The translations under genes were made by a program, and so were the position numbers. A DNA stretch of 64,000 bases from Methylococcus geothermalis (GTDB lineage: Bacteria > Pseudomonadota > Gammaproteobacteria > Methylococcales > Methylococcaceae), in assembly GCF_012769535.1 (NCBI RefSeq), contig NZ_CP046565.1, positions 2,122,501-2,186,500 of the forward strand, in the 5' to 3' direction. Position 1 is the first letter of the stretch, and every line of letters begins with the position of its first letter. Of this stretch, positions 44,866-50,538 are shown piece by piece. The notes below the pieces were generated by a model. The model saw only the letters and a program-made list of their open reading frames with translations. It ran no database searches and was not told the DNA's origin.

Positions 44866-45936
44866 TCAATCCAGGCGTTTCAGCCCGAGCCCAGGCTTGC
44901 CGGTCACACTCAGCCGGCCGTCCTCGAGGACGAAGCCGCCTTCGGCGATGTCGCGGGCCAAGTCGAAGCTGCCGTCCAGGTCGAGGTAGCGGGTGGCCGG
45001 GCAGGCGAGGGCGGCGTGCAGGGCGGCGGCGATGCTGATGCGGCTCTCGTCCATGCAGCCCCACATCAGCGCGATGCCCGCCGTTTCGGCGATCGCGGCG
45101 ATCCGCAGTGCCGGGGCCAGCCCTCCGCATTTCATCAGTTTGATGTTGAAGATGCCGCAAGCGGCGGGCGGCGCGGCCAGGGCGAAGGCGTCGGCGGGGC
45201 CGAGCAGGGATTCGTCGGCGGCGACCCGCCGTCGCACCGCTTCCGGCAGCGCCCGGAACCAGTCGGTCCTCTCCGCCGGGAAGGGCTGTTCGACGAACTC
45301 GATGCCGAGTTCCCGGCCGGCCCGGTCGAGCCGGAGCAGGCCGTCGACGCCGTAGCTCTGGTTGGGGTCGACCCGCATGACTGCGCGTCCGGCCAGCGTT
45401 TCGTGCAGCCGATGCAGCCGCGCGAAATCCTCCGTCTCTTCACCGGAGAGCTTGACCTTGAGCACCCGGAAGCCGAGGCCGAGGTATTCGCGGGCCTCCG
45501 TCAGCGTTTCCTCGACCGGCTTGATGCCGATGGTGACCGAGGTCGGCAGGCTGTCGTGCGCGCGTCCCAGGACGTCGGCCAGGGGCAGATCCAGCGCTTG
45601 GGCGAACAGGTCGTGCAGCGCCATGTCGAGGGCGGCGCGGGCGGCCGGCGCGGCGGGCAGCCGTTCCGTCAATTCCCGGCACAGCCGCGGCAGGGTGCGG
45701 ATGTCCCGGCCGATCAGCCAGTCGAGATCGTCCACGCTCAAGGCGGCGTGGCAGGCTTCCAGGGTTTCGCCGGTGACGTGGTGTTCAGGCGAGGCTGCGC
45801 CCAAGCCGAGCAAGCCGTCCGTAGTCCTGACTTCGACGATCAGGTTGTCGACTTCGTCGATGGAACGGAAGGCGATGCGGTAGGGCCGTGTCAGCGGGAA
45901 GTGTTCGGTCCGCACCCGGATGTCGAGGATATTCAT
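44866..45936 (-). CDS. dgcA: Enolase-superfamily epimerase/racemase (dipeptide epimerase or DgcA)
   Basis: A 356-residue member of the muconate lactonizing enzyme group. The start [20 protein letters not shown] (cut at 20) is at 45936, with its ATG overlapping the stop of the DUF1611 gene (ATGA). The barrel motifs include LKVKLSGE (catalytic Lys), MRVDPNQSYG and IEFVEQPF (metal Asp and Glu), AADESL, and FNIKLMKCGG (second Lys). Annotation pipelines usually call such proteins L-Ala-D/L-Glu epimerase. The tight pairing with a DUF1611 gene fits instead the DgcN-DgcA pair, in which DgcA racemises N-acetyl-D-glutamate. The symbol is therefore tentative. Confidence 0.78.
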   Translation of the reverse strand: MNILDIRVRTEHFPLTRPYRIAFRSIDEVDNLIVEVRTTDGLLGLGAASPEHHVTGETLEACHAALSVDDLDWLIGRDIRTLPRLCRELTERLPAAPAARAALDMALHDLFAQALDLPLADVLGRAHDSLPTSVTIGIKPVEETLTEAREYLGLGFRVLKVKLSGEETEDFARLHRLHETLAGRAVMRVDPNQSYGVDGLLRLDRAGRELGIEFVEQPFPAERTDWFRALPEAVRRRVAADESLLGPADAFALAAPPAACGIFNIKLMKCGGLAPALRIAAIAETAGIALMWGCMDESRISIAAALHAALACPATRYLDLDGSFDLARDIAEGGFVLEDGRLSVTGKPGLGLKRLD

Positions 45937-47006
45937 GCGACTTGCTTCCGGTCCAGCAACGCCCGCAGCGGCGGCAGCAGCTCGGTTACACCGTCTTCCA
46001 GCGGGCAGACGACCGGGATGTCCAGGGTCCGGGCCAGTCTGCGCTGCGCTTCCCGCAATTCTTCCGGGCTCGAATCCCGTCCGTTCAGGCTGACGCCCAG
46101 CACCGGCACACCGTAGTGTTCGATCAGCCGGATTTCGTCCTCCACGGGAGGAATCCGGAAATGCGGTCCTTCGAAGCCGTCGTAACAGCGCCGGCCGGGG
46201 GCGTGCTGCAGGATGACACCCGCCGTGGCCCCCGACAGCAGCAGTTCCGCCCCGCAGGGTCCGCTCGGATTGCGCAGGGCGGATTGGCCTTCCAGGACGA
46301 TGAGGTCGGGCCGGCATTCGCGGTAACAGCTCAGGATGGCGTGCTCCAGCTCGCCGCTGACGAAGTCGTTCGGCAGGGCATCCAGGATCAGGCCATGCCG
46401 CCCGCCCTGCATCCAGCCGGTCTGGCCGGTGTAGATCATCTCGGTCTTGACGCCTACCGCGTTCAGCGCCTGGACCACCCATCGGGAGGTGGTGCGCTTG
46501 CCCAGGGCGCAGTCGGTGCCGAGCACCGCGATCCGCGGTGCGACTACGCCGTGGATCTGGCCGGTCCAGAAATGCAGTTCGGCGACGGGCTTGGGCCGGC
46601 GCAAGTCGAGGATACTGGCGCCGTGGCGGGCCGTTTCCGCCGCGATTTCCGGATCGTCTCCGGCGAGGTCATGCAGGCCGTTGACCAGCGACAGGCCGGC
46701 CCGTGCCGCTTCGAGCAGGGCGGTGCGCAGGGTTTCGGTGAAGCGACCGCCGTGTGTCGCCATGCCGACGATGGCGAATTCGGGACGTATGCGCGCGTGG
46801 GCCAGGGCGGCGTCGATCGAGGCAAGAACGGGAATGCCCCGTGGCCGTCCGTCGAGCAGGGTGCCGGCGTCTTGGCCGGCGCAGGCGGGATCGATCACGG
46901 CGACGATGTCGAAGCGGTCCGTGCTTCGGACCAGGCCGTGGGCGACTTTGCCGTGTATGTCCCGGAAGCAGCCGTGGGCCAGAATGAGGGCGGGCGACTT
47001 GTCCAA
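45933..47006 (-). CDS. dgcN: DUF1611 protein, DgcN-like D-glutamate N-acetyltransferase
   Basis: A 357-residue protein if it starts at TTG 47006, which has GGAGG nine bases upstream; an ATG at 47090 would add 28 residues of poor quality. Motifs of DUF1611: [24 protein letters not shown], a P-loop-like [20 protein letters not shown] (cut) and [17 protein letters not shown]. The stop overlaps the start of the epimerase gene. DUF1611 proteins paired with an enolase-superfamily gene have been described as DgcN, acetylating D-glutamate for the DgcA racemase. It is the first gene of the operon that runs to budA. Function by family knowledge and context. Confidence 0.75.
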
Positions 47007-47097
47007 GCTTGTAGTCCTCCATGCGAAGCGCGGCGAGTGGTGCCCATCATATACCGGGATTCGGGAACAATCGGTGAAATGGGTTTCCATGCCCGTT

Positions 47098-47224
47098 TGT
47101 CACAAACCGTACAAATGCCTCTGGCCGTTGAGTCAGGTGTTGTGCCCACGCCAAGGGTGGCCAGGGCGCCACCGTGAATTCATTGGGTTTGTCGTGCCGC
47201 CAGCGGATGGCATATCGGTTGCTT
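47098..47224 (+). promoter_or_regulatory. NifA-type activator site and sigma-54 (-24/-12) promoter
   Basis: TGT-N10-ACA, the NifA upstream activator sequence, lies at 47098-47113. About 95 bases downstream is TGGCAT-N5-TTGCT at 47208-47223: GG 47209-47210 and GC 47221-47222 are separated by exactly ten bases, as sigma-54 holoenzyme needs. The predicted transcription start near 47234 is about 40 bases before the 55-residue ORF, which has a strong ribosome site. The spacing between the activator site and the -24/-12 element is in the usual range. The site faces the cysE-clpX2-draT genes and lies in the divergent gap to dgcN. Confidence 0.78.
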
Positions 47225-47275
47225 GGGTAGTATCCGAGAGTTGTTTCCATGCATCCCCATGCGAGGAGGTGTTCC

Positions 47276-47443
47276 ATGATCGGCTACGAATTCATCGACC
47301 AGGACTATCGCGAAACGGTCGTTCCCAGCACACCTGCAAACGAGCAGGAGACGGCAGCGACCGAGCAGGACGAATATCCCTTCTACATCATCCCGGCGCC
47401 GCCCGTGCCGGGACGGACTTCGTGGAGCGTGGTTCCGTGGTAG
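47276..47443 (+). CDS. Unknown 55-residue acidic peptide, first gene of the NifA/sigma-54 unit
   Basis: The ATG at 47276 is preceded by GAGGAGGT five bases upstream, one of the best ribosome sites in the window, which decides the start over a weaker ATG at 47249. The N-terminal part is acidic ([34 protein letters not shown]) and the C-terminal part is Pro- and Trp-containing ([16 protein letters not shown]). No signal peptide or membrane helix is seen. It is followed after 14 bases by the serine acetyltransferase gene. I do not recognise the family. A role in nitrogenase maturation or regulation is suggested only by the promoter and the neighbours. Confidence 0.7.
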
Positions 47444-47457
47444 GAAACGAGGCCGCC

Positions 47458-48183
47458 ATGCCGTCCCTCGCGGAGCTTTTGCGCGAGGATGTCGGCTGCG
47501 TGTTCGAGCGCGACCCGGCGGCGCGGAGCCGGCTGGAAGTCATGCTGACCTATCCCGGCGTCCACGCGGTACTGCTGCACCGGATCGCTCATCGGCTGTG
47601 GCGCGCGGGACACCGCCTGAGCGCCCGGCTGATGGCGGCATTCGCCCGCTGGCTGACCAACGTCGACATCCATCCCGGCGCCACCATCGGCCGGCGCTTT
47701 TTCATCGACCACGGCGCCGGCGTGGTGATCGGCGAGACCGCCGAGATCGGCGACGACGTGACGCTTTATCACGGCGTCACCCTCGGCGGCACCTCGTGGA
47801 ACAAGGTGAAACGCCATCCCACCCTGGGCAGTGGCGTGCTGGTCGGCGCCGGCGCCAAGATTCTGGGGCCCATCACGCTCGGCGACCAGGTCCGCGTCGG
47901 CGCGAATTCGGTGGTGATCAAGGACGTGCCGGCTTACTGCACGGTGGTCGGCATCCCCGGCAAGATCGTCCAGCCCAAGAGTTCGCGCCGGATCGATCCC
48001 CACGGCATCGACCTGGACCACCATTTGATCCCCGATCCGGTCGGCAAGGCGGTGCAATGCCTGCTGGACCGGATCGAAATCCTGGAAGACGAGCTGGTGA
48101 AGCGCCACATCGATTCGAACCACGCGTGCAGGCAGTGCGAAGGGGAACCGGTGTGCAGGGAACCCGCGGACATGGAATCTTGA
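47458..48183 (+). CDS. cysE: Serine O-acetyltransferase (NifP/CysE type)
   Basis: A 241-residue enzyme that makes O-acetylserine from serine and acetyl-CoA, the precursor of cysteine. Hexapeptide repeats form the left-handed helix ([20 protein letters not shown] (cut at 20), [20 protein letters not shown] (cut), [17 protein letters not shown]). The catalytic His lie in DHGAG and YHGVTLGG. The short N-terminal domain is the EpsC/NifP type. In Azotobacter a cysE copy (nifP) and a clpX copy sit in the nif cluster to supply cysteine for Fe-S clusters; the same pair is found here under a NifA/sigma-54 promoter. The C-terminal tail has a CxxC pair ([12 protein letters not shown]). Confidence 0.93.
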
Positions 48184-48208
48184 ATCATCGAGCTTTGAGG
48201 AGGACGGC

Positions 48209-49513
48209 ATGAGCAGCGATACGCCGGCAAACACCCAGCACTGCTCCTTTTGTGGTATCGAACAAAGCAGAGACACGCCGCTCATCGCCGGCATCGAGGG
48301 CCAGATCTGCGAGGCCTGCGTGCGCCTGGCCGAGCAGGTGGTGACGAACTGGGGCCGCAAGCGGTCGATGGCGGAGCTGCACGGCAACGTTCCCAAGCCG
48401 TGGGACATCAAGCGCCACCTCGACCAGTACGTGATCGGTCAGGAGCTGTCCAAGGAAATCCTTTCCGTCGCCGTCTACAACCACTACAAGCGCCTCCGCC
48501 ACGAGAGCCGCGAGATCCTGGGGCTGGCCGCGGACGACACGGACGTTCAGGTCGGCAAATCGAACATCCTGATGATCGGACCCACCGGCACCGGCAAGAC
48601 CCTCCTGGCCAGCACCCTGGCGCGCATCGTCGGCGTGCCGTTCGTGGTGGCGGATGCGACCACCCTGACTCAGGCCGGCTATGTCGGCGACGACGTCGAG
48701 AACATCCTGGTGCGCCTGCTGGAAGCCGCCGACGGCAGCGTCGAACGGGCGGAATGGGGCATCGTGTACATCGATGAAGTTGACAAGCTGGCGAAGAGCC
48801 CGGAAATGGCGATCAACACCCGCGACATTTCCGGCGAAGGCGTGCAGCAGGCCCTCTTGCGCTTCGTCGAAGGCAGCCAGGTGAAGGTGGCGGCCCGAGG
48901 CCGGCGGCGCGAAGGCAGCGGCGGCGACGAGGTCACAATCGATACCCGCAACATCCTGTTCATCGCGGGGGGTGCGTTTCCGGGCTTGGAAAAGCACGTG
49001 GAGAAACGCATCGGCCCGCCGCGCGGCGAGATCGGTTTCCACGCGCCCATGCAGGACTCGAAAAAGCCGCCCTTGGAGGAATTGCTGGCGGAAATCCAGC
49101 CCGAAGACCTGCGGCGGTTCGGGTTGATCCCGGAGTTCATCGGCCGCTTCCCCGTGATCGCTCCCTTGGAGCCGCTGGACGAGGCCGCTTTGGTCCGCAT
49201 TCTCACAGAGCCCCGAGATGCTCTGGTGCGGCAATACCAGAAATTGTTCGCCTACGAGGGCGTCGAACTGGTCTTCACCGAGGCAGCGATCCGCCGCATC
49301 GCCGCGCGCACCATCGAGCGGGACACCGGCGCGCGCGGCTTGCGCAGCATCATCGAGCACATCCTCCGCCGACCGATGTTCGAGATTCCCTCGCAGTCGG
49401 ACGTCCGCCAGTGCGTCGTCGATGCGGACACGGTGGAACGCAACGCCCCAGTGAAGCTGATCCGCGACGAGGAGGCTTCGTCGGATTCCTGCGCCGCCGC
49501 AGGGTGCGTCTGA
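48209..49513 (+). CDS. clpX2: Divergent ClpX paralogue (nif-associated ClpX2)
   Basis: A 434-residue AAA+ unfoldase. The C4 zinc-binding domain has C12, C15, C34 and C37. Walker A GPTGTGKT is at 124-131 and the pore loop GYVG is intact. Walker B is in GIVYIDEVDKLA. ISGEGVQQALL, IPEFIGRFPVIAPL and GARGLRSIIEHIL are typical ClpX. The IGF tripeptide that docks ClpP is present (GEIGFHAPM). The RKH pore loop is not conserved (GRRREGSGG in its place). It lies 25 bases after cysE. No clpP is adjacent. The pairing with a NifP-like gene and the sigma-54 promoter match the nif-cluster ClpX of Azotobacter, proposed to act in FeMo-cofactor biosynthesis protein turnover. Confidence 0.93.
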   Translation: MSSDTPANTQHCSFCGIEQSRDTPLIAGIEGQICEACVRLAEQVVTNWGRKRSMAELHGNVPKPWDIKRHLDQYVIGQELSKEILSVAVYNHYKRLRHESREILGLAADDTDVQVGKSNILMIGPTGTGKTLLASTLARIVGVPFVVADATTLTQAGYVGDDVENILVRLLEAADGSVERAEWGIVYIDEVDKLAKSPEMAINTRDISGEGVQQALLRFVEGSQVKVAARGRRREGSGGDEVTIDTRNILFIAGGAFPGLEKHVEKRIGPPRGEIGFHAPMQDSKKPPLEELLAEIQPEDLRRFGLIPEFIGRFPVIAPLEPLDEAALVRILTEPRDALVRQYQKLFAYEGVELVFTEAAIRRIAARTIERDTGARGLRSIIEHILRRPMFEIPSQSDVRQCVVDADTVERNAPVKLIRDEEASSDSCAAAGCV

Positions 49514-49560
49514 GGCGAAAGCCGCGGGAAGGCCTGTGGATTCTCACTCGCAGGTAAAGA

Positions 49561-49980
49561 GGGGCGACCCGCTTCCACAATAACTGCATTTACCTGCAGC
49601 TCGACTTGCTGTTTGAGTTCTGCCAATGGGCGATCGGCCGTTTCAAGCTACCGGCACGTCGCCATATCCGGCTCTACCGCGGCGTAGACAGCGTCGGCGA
49701 ATTCTGCACCCTCGGCGCCGGCATGGGCCGGGACATCCTGGTGCGCCTCAACAACATCGTCTCATTCGCCGGCGACCGCACCCAGGCGGGACAGTTAGGC
49801 GCCTATATCCTCGAAACCGAAGTGCCGGTCGTCAAACTGATATTCTTCAATGATCTGCTGCCGCGCCATCCCTTGCGAGGAGAAGCGGAGTATCTGGTGA
49901 TTGGCGAGACTTACCGGGTAAGGCTTACGGTATGTATAAGGAGCGGTGGCCGGTGCATTCGCACACAAGCTGGCCTATGA
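49561..49980 (+). pseudogene. draT: draT, dinitrogenase reductase ADP-ribosyltransferase, 5'-truncated
   Basis: The frame is open from a TAA at 49555 to TGA 49978-49980 and matches the C-terminal half of DraT: YLQLDLLFEFCQW, IRLYRGVDS, VRLNNIVSFAGDRTQAGQLG (cut), AYILETEVPVVKLIFFNDLL (cut) and RGEAEYLVIGETY. The R-S-E elements of this ADP-ribosyltransferase class are all kept (Arg in LYRG, Ser in NNIVSF, ExE in EAE). The N-terminal half, about 130 residues, is missing; 47 bases upstream clpX2 ends. A TTG at 49606 could start a short product, but no ribosome site is clear. No draG is in the window. Confidence 0.75.
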
Positions 49981-50019
49981 TACTCATGGAGCCTCGTCAA
50001 AGCCGGGAGCGGCCGTTCC

Positions 50020-50538
50020 ATGAATAAAACCTTCCTATCAGGGGTACTGGCTGTTTCCGCCATTCTTCCCGGCGCCGAGGTCCACGCCGCGAAAGCGGCG
50101 GCGCCCCCAACCGCTCCGGCTGCTCGGCCTGCCGAGCAGGACGAACTGGCGCTGTTCCGAGCCAGCATCCGCATGGAGAAACGCCAATTCGTCGCCGATG
50201 CGATGGATCTGGATGAGGCGCAGGGCAAGCAATTCTGGTCGATCTACCATCAGTACGAAGCCGACCTGATGAAGCTGAACGAGACCCGTTACACGTTGAT
50301 CAGCGACTACGCGGCGAATTTCGATACCATCAGTGAAGCCAAGGCCGATGCGCTGGTCAGGGCGGCCCTGGCGTTCCGTAAATCGCGCACCGCGTTGCTG
50401 GAAAAATATTACGGCAAATTGGCGAAAGCCCTTTCGAAAAGGATCGGCGCGCGCTTTCTGCAGATCGAAAACGTGCTGCAAGGGGCGGAGGACGTGGAAA
50501 TCGGCGCGTCATTGCCTTTGATGCCGAAGTCTCAATAG
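50020..50538 (+). CDS. Secreted helical protein, unknown function
   Basis: A 172-residue protein. The signal peptide spans about residues 1-23 (ending VHAAK), followed by a Pro/Ala linker (KAAAPPTAPAARPAEQ). The mature part is all-helical (FRASIRMEKRQFVADAMDLD (cut), KQFWSIYHQYEADLMKLNET (cut), LEKYYGKLAKALSKRIGARF). This pattern recalls small periplasmic helical-hairpin proteins such as the Spy/LTXXQ group, but the LTXXQ motif is not evident. It stands alone between the draT remnant and the transglycosylase gene. Confidence 0.72.
   Translation: MNKTFLSGVLAVSAILPGAEVHAAKAAAPPTAPAARPAEQDELALFRASIRMEKRQFVADAMDLDEAQGKQFWSIYHQYEADLMKLNETRYTLISDYAANFDTISEAKADALVRAALAFRKSRTALLEKYYGKLAKALSKRIGARFLQIENVLQGAEDVEIGASLPLMPKSQ

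Follow-up and report, generated by a model that had tools for sequence, protein, structure and literature searches.

We describe a gene for a 55-residue peptide in the methanotroph Methylococcus geothermalis, which, as judged from sequence comparison, very probably encodes an overlooked nitrogen-fixation protein of the order Methylococcales. The gene lies on the forward strand of the window, by which we mean the whole stretch of 64,000 nucleotides that was analysed (positions 2122501-2186500 of C1, the only contig of the 3.37-Mb genome, here termed G000). It runs from an ATG at 47276 to a stop codon at 47443, and its product ends in the motif FxIPxPPxPGKTxWS. Behind it follow cysE, clpX2 and a draT sequence. 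We consider it likely that this is, as a whole, a Methylococcales-specific nif accessory peptide, driven by NifA and sigma-54 and composed of a disordered arm and a docking motif. The reading frame, its conservation, the selection on its tail, its linkage to nif genes and the architecture of its promoter were computed, and from them we infer control by NifA and RpoN, disorder and docking.

Searching with the window peptide alone (E 0.1), we found the gene in 25 of 38 genomes of the family, and a profile of 29 members (E 0.01) recovered it from 147 of 311 Methylococcales genomes, representing 34 of the 50 genera. The gene nifH was detected in 152 of the 311 genomes at E 1e-80, with 149 of these over the cut-off of the model. 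A preliminary description of this stretch had made the case for the peptide depend on homologues in other diazotrophs, and in nifH-bearing Methylococcales they are common: 135 genomes have both genes, 12 the peptide only, 17 nifH only and 147 neither, counts that take no account of the shared ancestry of the genomes. When the profile was applied to a sample of the class comprising 369 genomes, four of them Methylococcales, we observed no credible homologue in the 365 other gammaproteobacteria; alphaproteobacterial methanotrophs were not part of this search. Four weak matches outside the order (E 0.003-0.01) were rejected as homologues: those in G466 and G576, which belong to one genus, read through a stop inside the open reading frame (ORF) of another gene, that in G521 reads through three stops, and that in G522 lies opposite a long ORF. 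A scan of GTDB contigs with one pattern matched 34 stretches, of which 14 were confirmed, all 14 from Methylococcaceae or methanotroph genera. One plasmid match, to a Streptomyces (E 0.3, 58% of the query), was dismissed.

The linkage of the peptide to nif genes is conserved across genera. Many share the order nifU-nifS-nifV-peptide-cysE-(162-residue family)-nifW-clpX2-nifF, with local differences, so that the expected conservation of the peptide beside nif-linked cysE and clpX in other methanotrophs was indeed found. Here the labels nifH, nifA (in G000), nifV, cysE, clpX and draT were assigned with family models, and nifL, nifF, nifW, nifU/iscU, nifS/iscS and the 162-residue family were recognized by eye and by BLAST against our own reference set. 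The peptide lies between nifV and cysE in all 34 fetched loci where the two occur together (some 29 are distinct loci), a figure that expresses constancy of place and not frequency, because most loci were chosen by a match to the peptide. Outside the order, cysE came next in 16 of 27 fetched nifV loci, 12-97 bp after nifV, which leaves no room for a peptide ORF; the remaining 11 had no cysE on the roughly 1.5 kb seen downstream. Other arrangements occur within the order. In four Methylocaldum-type loci (L047-L050) the peptide stands alone opposite nifL-nifA, genes labelled by eye; it precedes clpX2 in L045 and L046, in the former also opposite a nifF-like flavodoxin gene, and it precedes cysE in L051, L052 and L055.

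The stretches around nifH were examined in all 17 nifH-only genomes. One of them, in G280, carries nifV and cysE, with a diverged peptide (E 0.002) between the two. Six of the 12 peptide-only genomes were examined (G157, G228, G287, G277, G017 and G057). The peptide lies between nifV and cysE in G157, G228 and G287, which have no nifH match, and in G277, likewise with no nifH match, it stands before the cysE of a cysE-nifW-clpX2 stretch. The match in G057, which is counted among the 147, is doubtful: its E is 0.003, its 4.9-kb contig carries no nif gene and its frame continues past the motif; the match in G007 is interrupted by a contig end. As a side observation, G157 (L196, L197) has on a single contig nifV-peptide-cysE-nifW, then apparent transposase and integrase ORFs, then clpX2 and nifF, as labelled by eye; this is perhaps a nif cluster in decay.

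At the level of the protein, the ORF is present in 6/6 genomes of the genus. Over the 15 pairs formed by these six congeners, residues 32-55 show 0-1 nonsynonymous versus 2-9 synonymous changes per pair, and residues 1-31 change faster. The last 20 or so residues are under strong purifying selection. We therefore rejected a chance ORF, given that the frame is conserved across genera and its tail is under selection. In an alignment of 29 members, M1, G46, W50 and S51 never vary and P43 and T48 hardly do. The core reads roughly D-[DE]-x-[YF]-P-(GS)-[FY]-[FY]-x-[IV]-P-x-P-P-[IV]-P-G-[KRQ]-T-x-W-S-[LIV], and only 2-7 residues follow the WS before the end of the chain. The N-terminal arm is net acidic in 24 of the 29, and its fraction of disorder-promoting residues is 0.67-0.88. 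This anatomy points to a disordered arm followed by a C-terminal docking motif. The peptide had been described as having no recognized family, and against Pfam, NCBIfam, PHROGs and the sequences of the PDB we likewise obtained no family match; the 29 members gave none in Pfam or NCBIfam save one to Multi_ubiq at E 0.3. Nor did we see mimicry of a Nif protein: in a set of 1545 ORFs from seven loci plus the window, no match beyond the peptides themselves was better than E 0.49.

Upstream of the gene, a NifA-type upstream activator site (UAS), TGT-N10-ACA (TGTCACAAACCGTACA, 47098-47113), and a -24/-12 sigma-54-type element (TGGCATATCGGTTGCT, 47208-47223) can be read directly on the forward strand, with an exact GG-N10-GC in the latter and a gap of 94 bp between them, in agreement with the order and spacing first described. 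The element is a strict match, close to TGGCAY-N5-TTGCW, and the UAS falls within the range of about 80-150 bp upstream. The TGT and ACA of the UAS and the -24/-12 element are kept in 6/6 congeneric promoters, and both elements persist in 5/5 congeners of the window's strain. In the six-genome alignment TGT, ACAAA, TGGCA, GTTGCTT and the letters of the ribosome-binding site are invariant, and the interior of the UAS and the spacer have changed.

We stress that TGT-N10-ACA alone occurs at chance level, with 4 in the window versus 5.85 expected and 175 in the genome versus 181 for the reversed pattern. For the strict -24/-12 pattern, the window has one match versus 0.15 expected (at least one in 12 of 100 shuffles), and the 3.37-Mb genome has 6 versus one for the reverse. 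The joint module is found once in the window; among windows generated by a first-order Markov model it appeared in 1/150 at a score of 18.5 and in 0/150 at the full score of 19.5. Only two of the six strict genomic sites have a UAS at the right upstream distance, and these are the promoters of nifH, with two UAS at gaps of 80 and 109 bp, and of the peptide, with its one at 94 bp. The remaining four show no UAS upstream within their 3-kb stretches. One of the six strict matches sits in a spacer of a clustered regularly interspaced short palindromic repeat (CRISPR) array (L062, at about 1.038-1.041 Mb of G000:C1); the spacer match shares exactly 16 bp, and nothing longer, with a sigma-54-like site at 1013422.

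The genome encodes a NifA (TIGR01817, above cut-off, at C1:894426), and the NifA model also gave twelve partial matches there to sigma-54 activator domains. We then define as stand-alone those loci in which the peptide is not downstream of nifV, 18 in number (the window, L040-L052, L055, L058, L059 and L112). In 13 of these a UAS/sigma-54 module lies upstream of the peptide, the sigma-54 element beginning 59-454 bp before the start codon, with L048 (454 bp) the least certain. Many cluster-type loci have modules before nifU or nifV instead. With homologues beside nif genes and this recurrence at stand-alone loci, the proposal of a NifA/sigma-54-controlled unit is well supported from sequence. 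Because a nif promoter recurs ahead of the peptide although its neighbours differ, the peptide itself is likely to be wanted during nitrogen fixation.

From these observations, we hypothesize that NifA would act at TGT-N10-ACA and that sigma-54 RNA polymerase would read from the -24/-12 element, with the peptide as the first gene of the unit. The peptide would be a Methylococcales-specific nif gene, commonly flanked by nifV and cysE in a nifUSV-peptide-cysE-nifW-clpX2 cluster. In the simplest history, an ancestor of the order would have had an Azotobacter-like cluster with the peptide in that position; this cluster would then have broken up in Methylococcus, Methylocaldum and others, into pieces that kept or gained NifA/sigma-54 promoters. 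In Methylococcus, the stretch with the peptide would thereby have been separated from nifHDK under its own promoter, nifV and nifW having stayed by nifHDK. The product is probably small and largely disordered; its acidic arm accepts substitutions, and its C-terminal FxIPxPPxPGKTxWS would dock onto some protein belonging to the Nif system. We picture the product as assisting the maturation or turnover of nitrogenase and not as an enzyme. Candidate partners are CysE or NifV and ClpX2 by position, and NifL or NifA by the Methylocaldum arrangement. Only tentatively, and as something short of probable, do we put forward that an order-specific Nif protein docks on an assembly or turnover factor (ClpX2, CysE/NifV or NifL-NifA) and so provides a control of maturation that other gammaproteobacteria lack. 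The peptide represents a novel family within a regulon already known rather than a novel kind of system.

The partners can be weighed one by one. A peptide that adjusts the supply of cysteine or homocitrate for cofactor assembly by binding the nif-type CysE, or NifV, would agree with its usual place between the two genes, with the small distance to cysE (14 bp in the window) and with L052 and L055, where peptide and cysE occur together with no clpX2 on the stretch; however, no cysE lies on the stretch beside the peptide in L045, L046, L047-L050 and L056, and the 16 other gammaproteobacterial nifV-cysE pairs do without the peptide, which leaves this role rather unlikely. We regard as unlikely, too, a role in steering the turnover of Nif proteins through ClpX2, with the peptide as its adaptor, anti-adaptor or tagged substrate. 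The tail through which SspB binds ClpX is a disordered chain carrying a short motif at its C terminus, and our peptide resembles adaptors of this type in its predicted disordered chain, in its short conserved C-terminal motif and in the clpX of the window's unit; it differs from them in having variable chain ends and no folded substrate-binding domain, and shows no sequence relationship to them. The gene clpX2 is, moreover, directly downstream of the peptide in L045 and L046, and a reference title in PMC5715403 has ClpX2 regulating the levels of NifB and NifEN in Azotobacter. Yet the chain ends (VVPW, IA, IAG, LR, LS, LAK) vary in a way that a fixed ClpX degron does not, and clpX2 is missing from the stretch around the stand-alone copies L047-L050, L052 and L055.

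A role as regulator of NifL or NifA is suggested by the divergent placement from nifL-nifA in L047-L050, but elsewhere in the order the peptide sits in the cofactor-assembly cluster, and the nifLA adjacency may reflect cluster break-up only; we judge this role quite improbable. Still less credible is a leader or attenuator, in which translation would matter and the product would not. A short first gene with a strong ribosome site ahead of cysE would suit it, but the tail is under selection at the protein level, the same motif occurs at different genomic places, some with no cysE behind it, and Rfam gave no RNA family match in 46900-50100. That the promoter match arose by chance and the unit is not nif-regulated can practically be dismissed, since, although TGT-N10-ACA by itself is at chance level, the joint module is rare, a UAS accompanies only two of the six genomic sites, the footprint is conserved across six congeners and the same module recurs at other stand-alone loci.

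Our preferred reading, of an order-specific nif accessory peptide, has to be held against several observations that weigh on the other side, in addition to the shared ancestry and the choice of loci that qualify the counts above. The module is absent at five of the 18 stand-alone loci: L049, which has it only at wider spacing, L051, L058, L059 and L112. G006 and G014 possess a Methylococcus-type nifHDKENX cluster and gave no match to the peptide, which is therefore not indispensable for every diazotroph of the order. In the 16 nifH-only genomes other than G280 nothing better than about E 0.1 was seen, on stretches most of which stop short of nifV. Conversely, G017 (L055), rated 100% complete, has a peptide-cysE unit with an intact UAS/sigma-54 module and no nifH match.

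The catalogue of nif genes in the model diazotrophs dates from long ago, and short ORFs within such clusters are readily overlooked. Where a conserved peptide retains or acquires a nif-type promoter of its own as a cluster falls apart, it is a strong candidate for a functional component. We found it only in one methanotroph order. Methanotrophs of this order need oxygen for methane oxidation while they fix nitrogen, and the peptide offers a single-gene handle on whether Methylococcales manage nitrogenase assembly in their own way. If the maturation control that we propose is real, methane-fed, oxygen-dependent diazotrophs would have one that is absent from other gammaproteobacteria.

NifT, NifW and CowN are small Nif accessory proteins at the periphery of nitrogenase assembly; the peptide is, like them, small and nif-linked and, unlike them, has in the window's version no Pfam or NCBIfam match. 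The iscA-nif unit of Azotobacter vinelandii has the order nifUSV-cysE1-nifWZM-clpX2 in the available part of PMC9866876. The Methylococcales clusters keep the order nifV, cysE, nifW, clpX2, with nifF nearby in many, and appear from sequence to share the NifA/sigma-54 control, but compared with the unit as described in that part they have in addition the peptide, placed between nifV and cysE, and, before nifW, a protein of the 162-residue family. A gene of the latter family is at L106 4037-4525 in G000; in many Methylococcales such a gene separates cysE from nifW, and the family also occurs in other gammaproteobacterial nifV loci. In Methylomicrobium buryatense, nif genes and ClpX are reported to go up together (PMC7154130), in a text whose available part does not distinguish clpX from clpX2 and names no small ORF. 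Literature searches by title and by words from the peptide sequence returned, in the parts of the sources available, none naming such a peptide.

The unit lies away from the structural nif genes, as first described: nifH is at 817498 and nifV at 836972 of the genome, and nifH is 1.35 Mb from the peptide unit along the contig. The ribosome-binding site of the peptide (AGGAGGTG, 47262-47269, with GAGGTGTTCCATG invariant in 6/6 aligned congeners) had been called the best of the group and is the most complete, although clpX2 also has GAGGAGG. The order first described, peptide-cysE-clpX2-draT, was confirmed, all on the forward strand, but draT proved to be a remnant lacking its N-terminal half. 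The cysE gene (47458-48183), encoding a serine O-acetyltransferase of nifP type by context, begins 14 bp 3' of the peptide stop and matches TIGR01172 with an E of 1.1e-73 (246.5 bits versus a cut-off of 210.65). The clpX2 gene (48209-49513), the second ClpX of the genome by alignment to ClpX1, has a PF06689 zinc finger and a PF07724 AAA domain and matches NF003745 with an E of 2.8e-167 (556.8 bits versus a cut-off of 359). The other clpX (L105 14356-16374) is in the nif region and adjoins clpP, the pair being placed between nifX-side genes and nifS/nifU-like genes, all neighbours labelled by eye. Upstream of the unit, on the reverse strand at 45933-47090, is a divergent DUF1611 (DgcN-like) gene. 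Similarity to most congeners starts about 24 residues inside its listed ORF, so its true start is probably further in and the intergenic region wider.

The draT remnant (49606-49980, 5'-truncated) covers positions 151-255 of 256 in PF07357, or 135-255 in a second search, and is the only draT match in the genome. All five congeners have a full-length draT whose open frame spans 282-284 residues, and in four of the five it follows clpX2. In the DNA alignment to genome G004, window positions 49438-49562 are unmatched versus about 610 bp in G004. Since the only draT lacks its first half, the enzyme that switches nitrogenase off after ammonium has probably been lost here, and this strain may be without ADP-ribosylation switch-off of nitrogenase.

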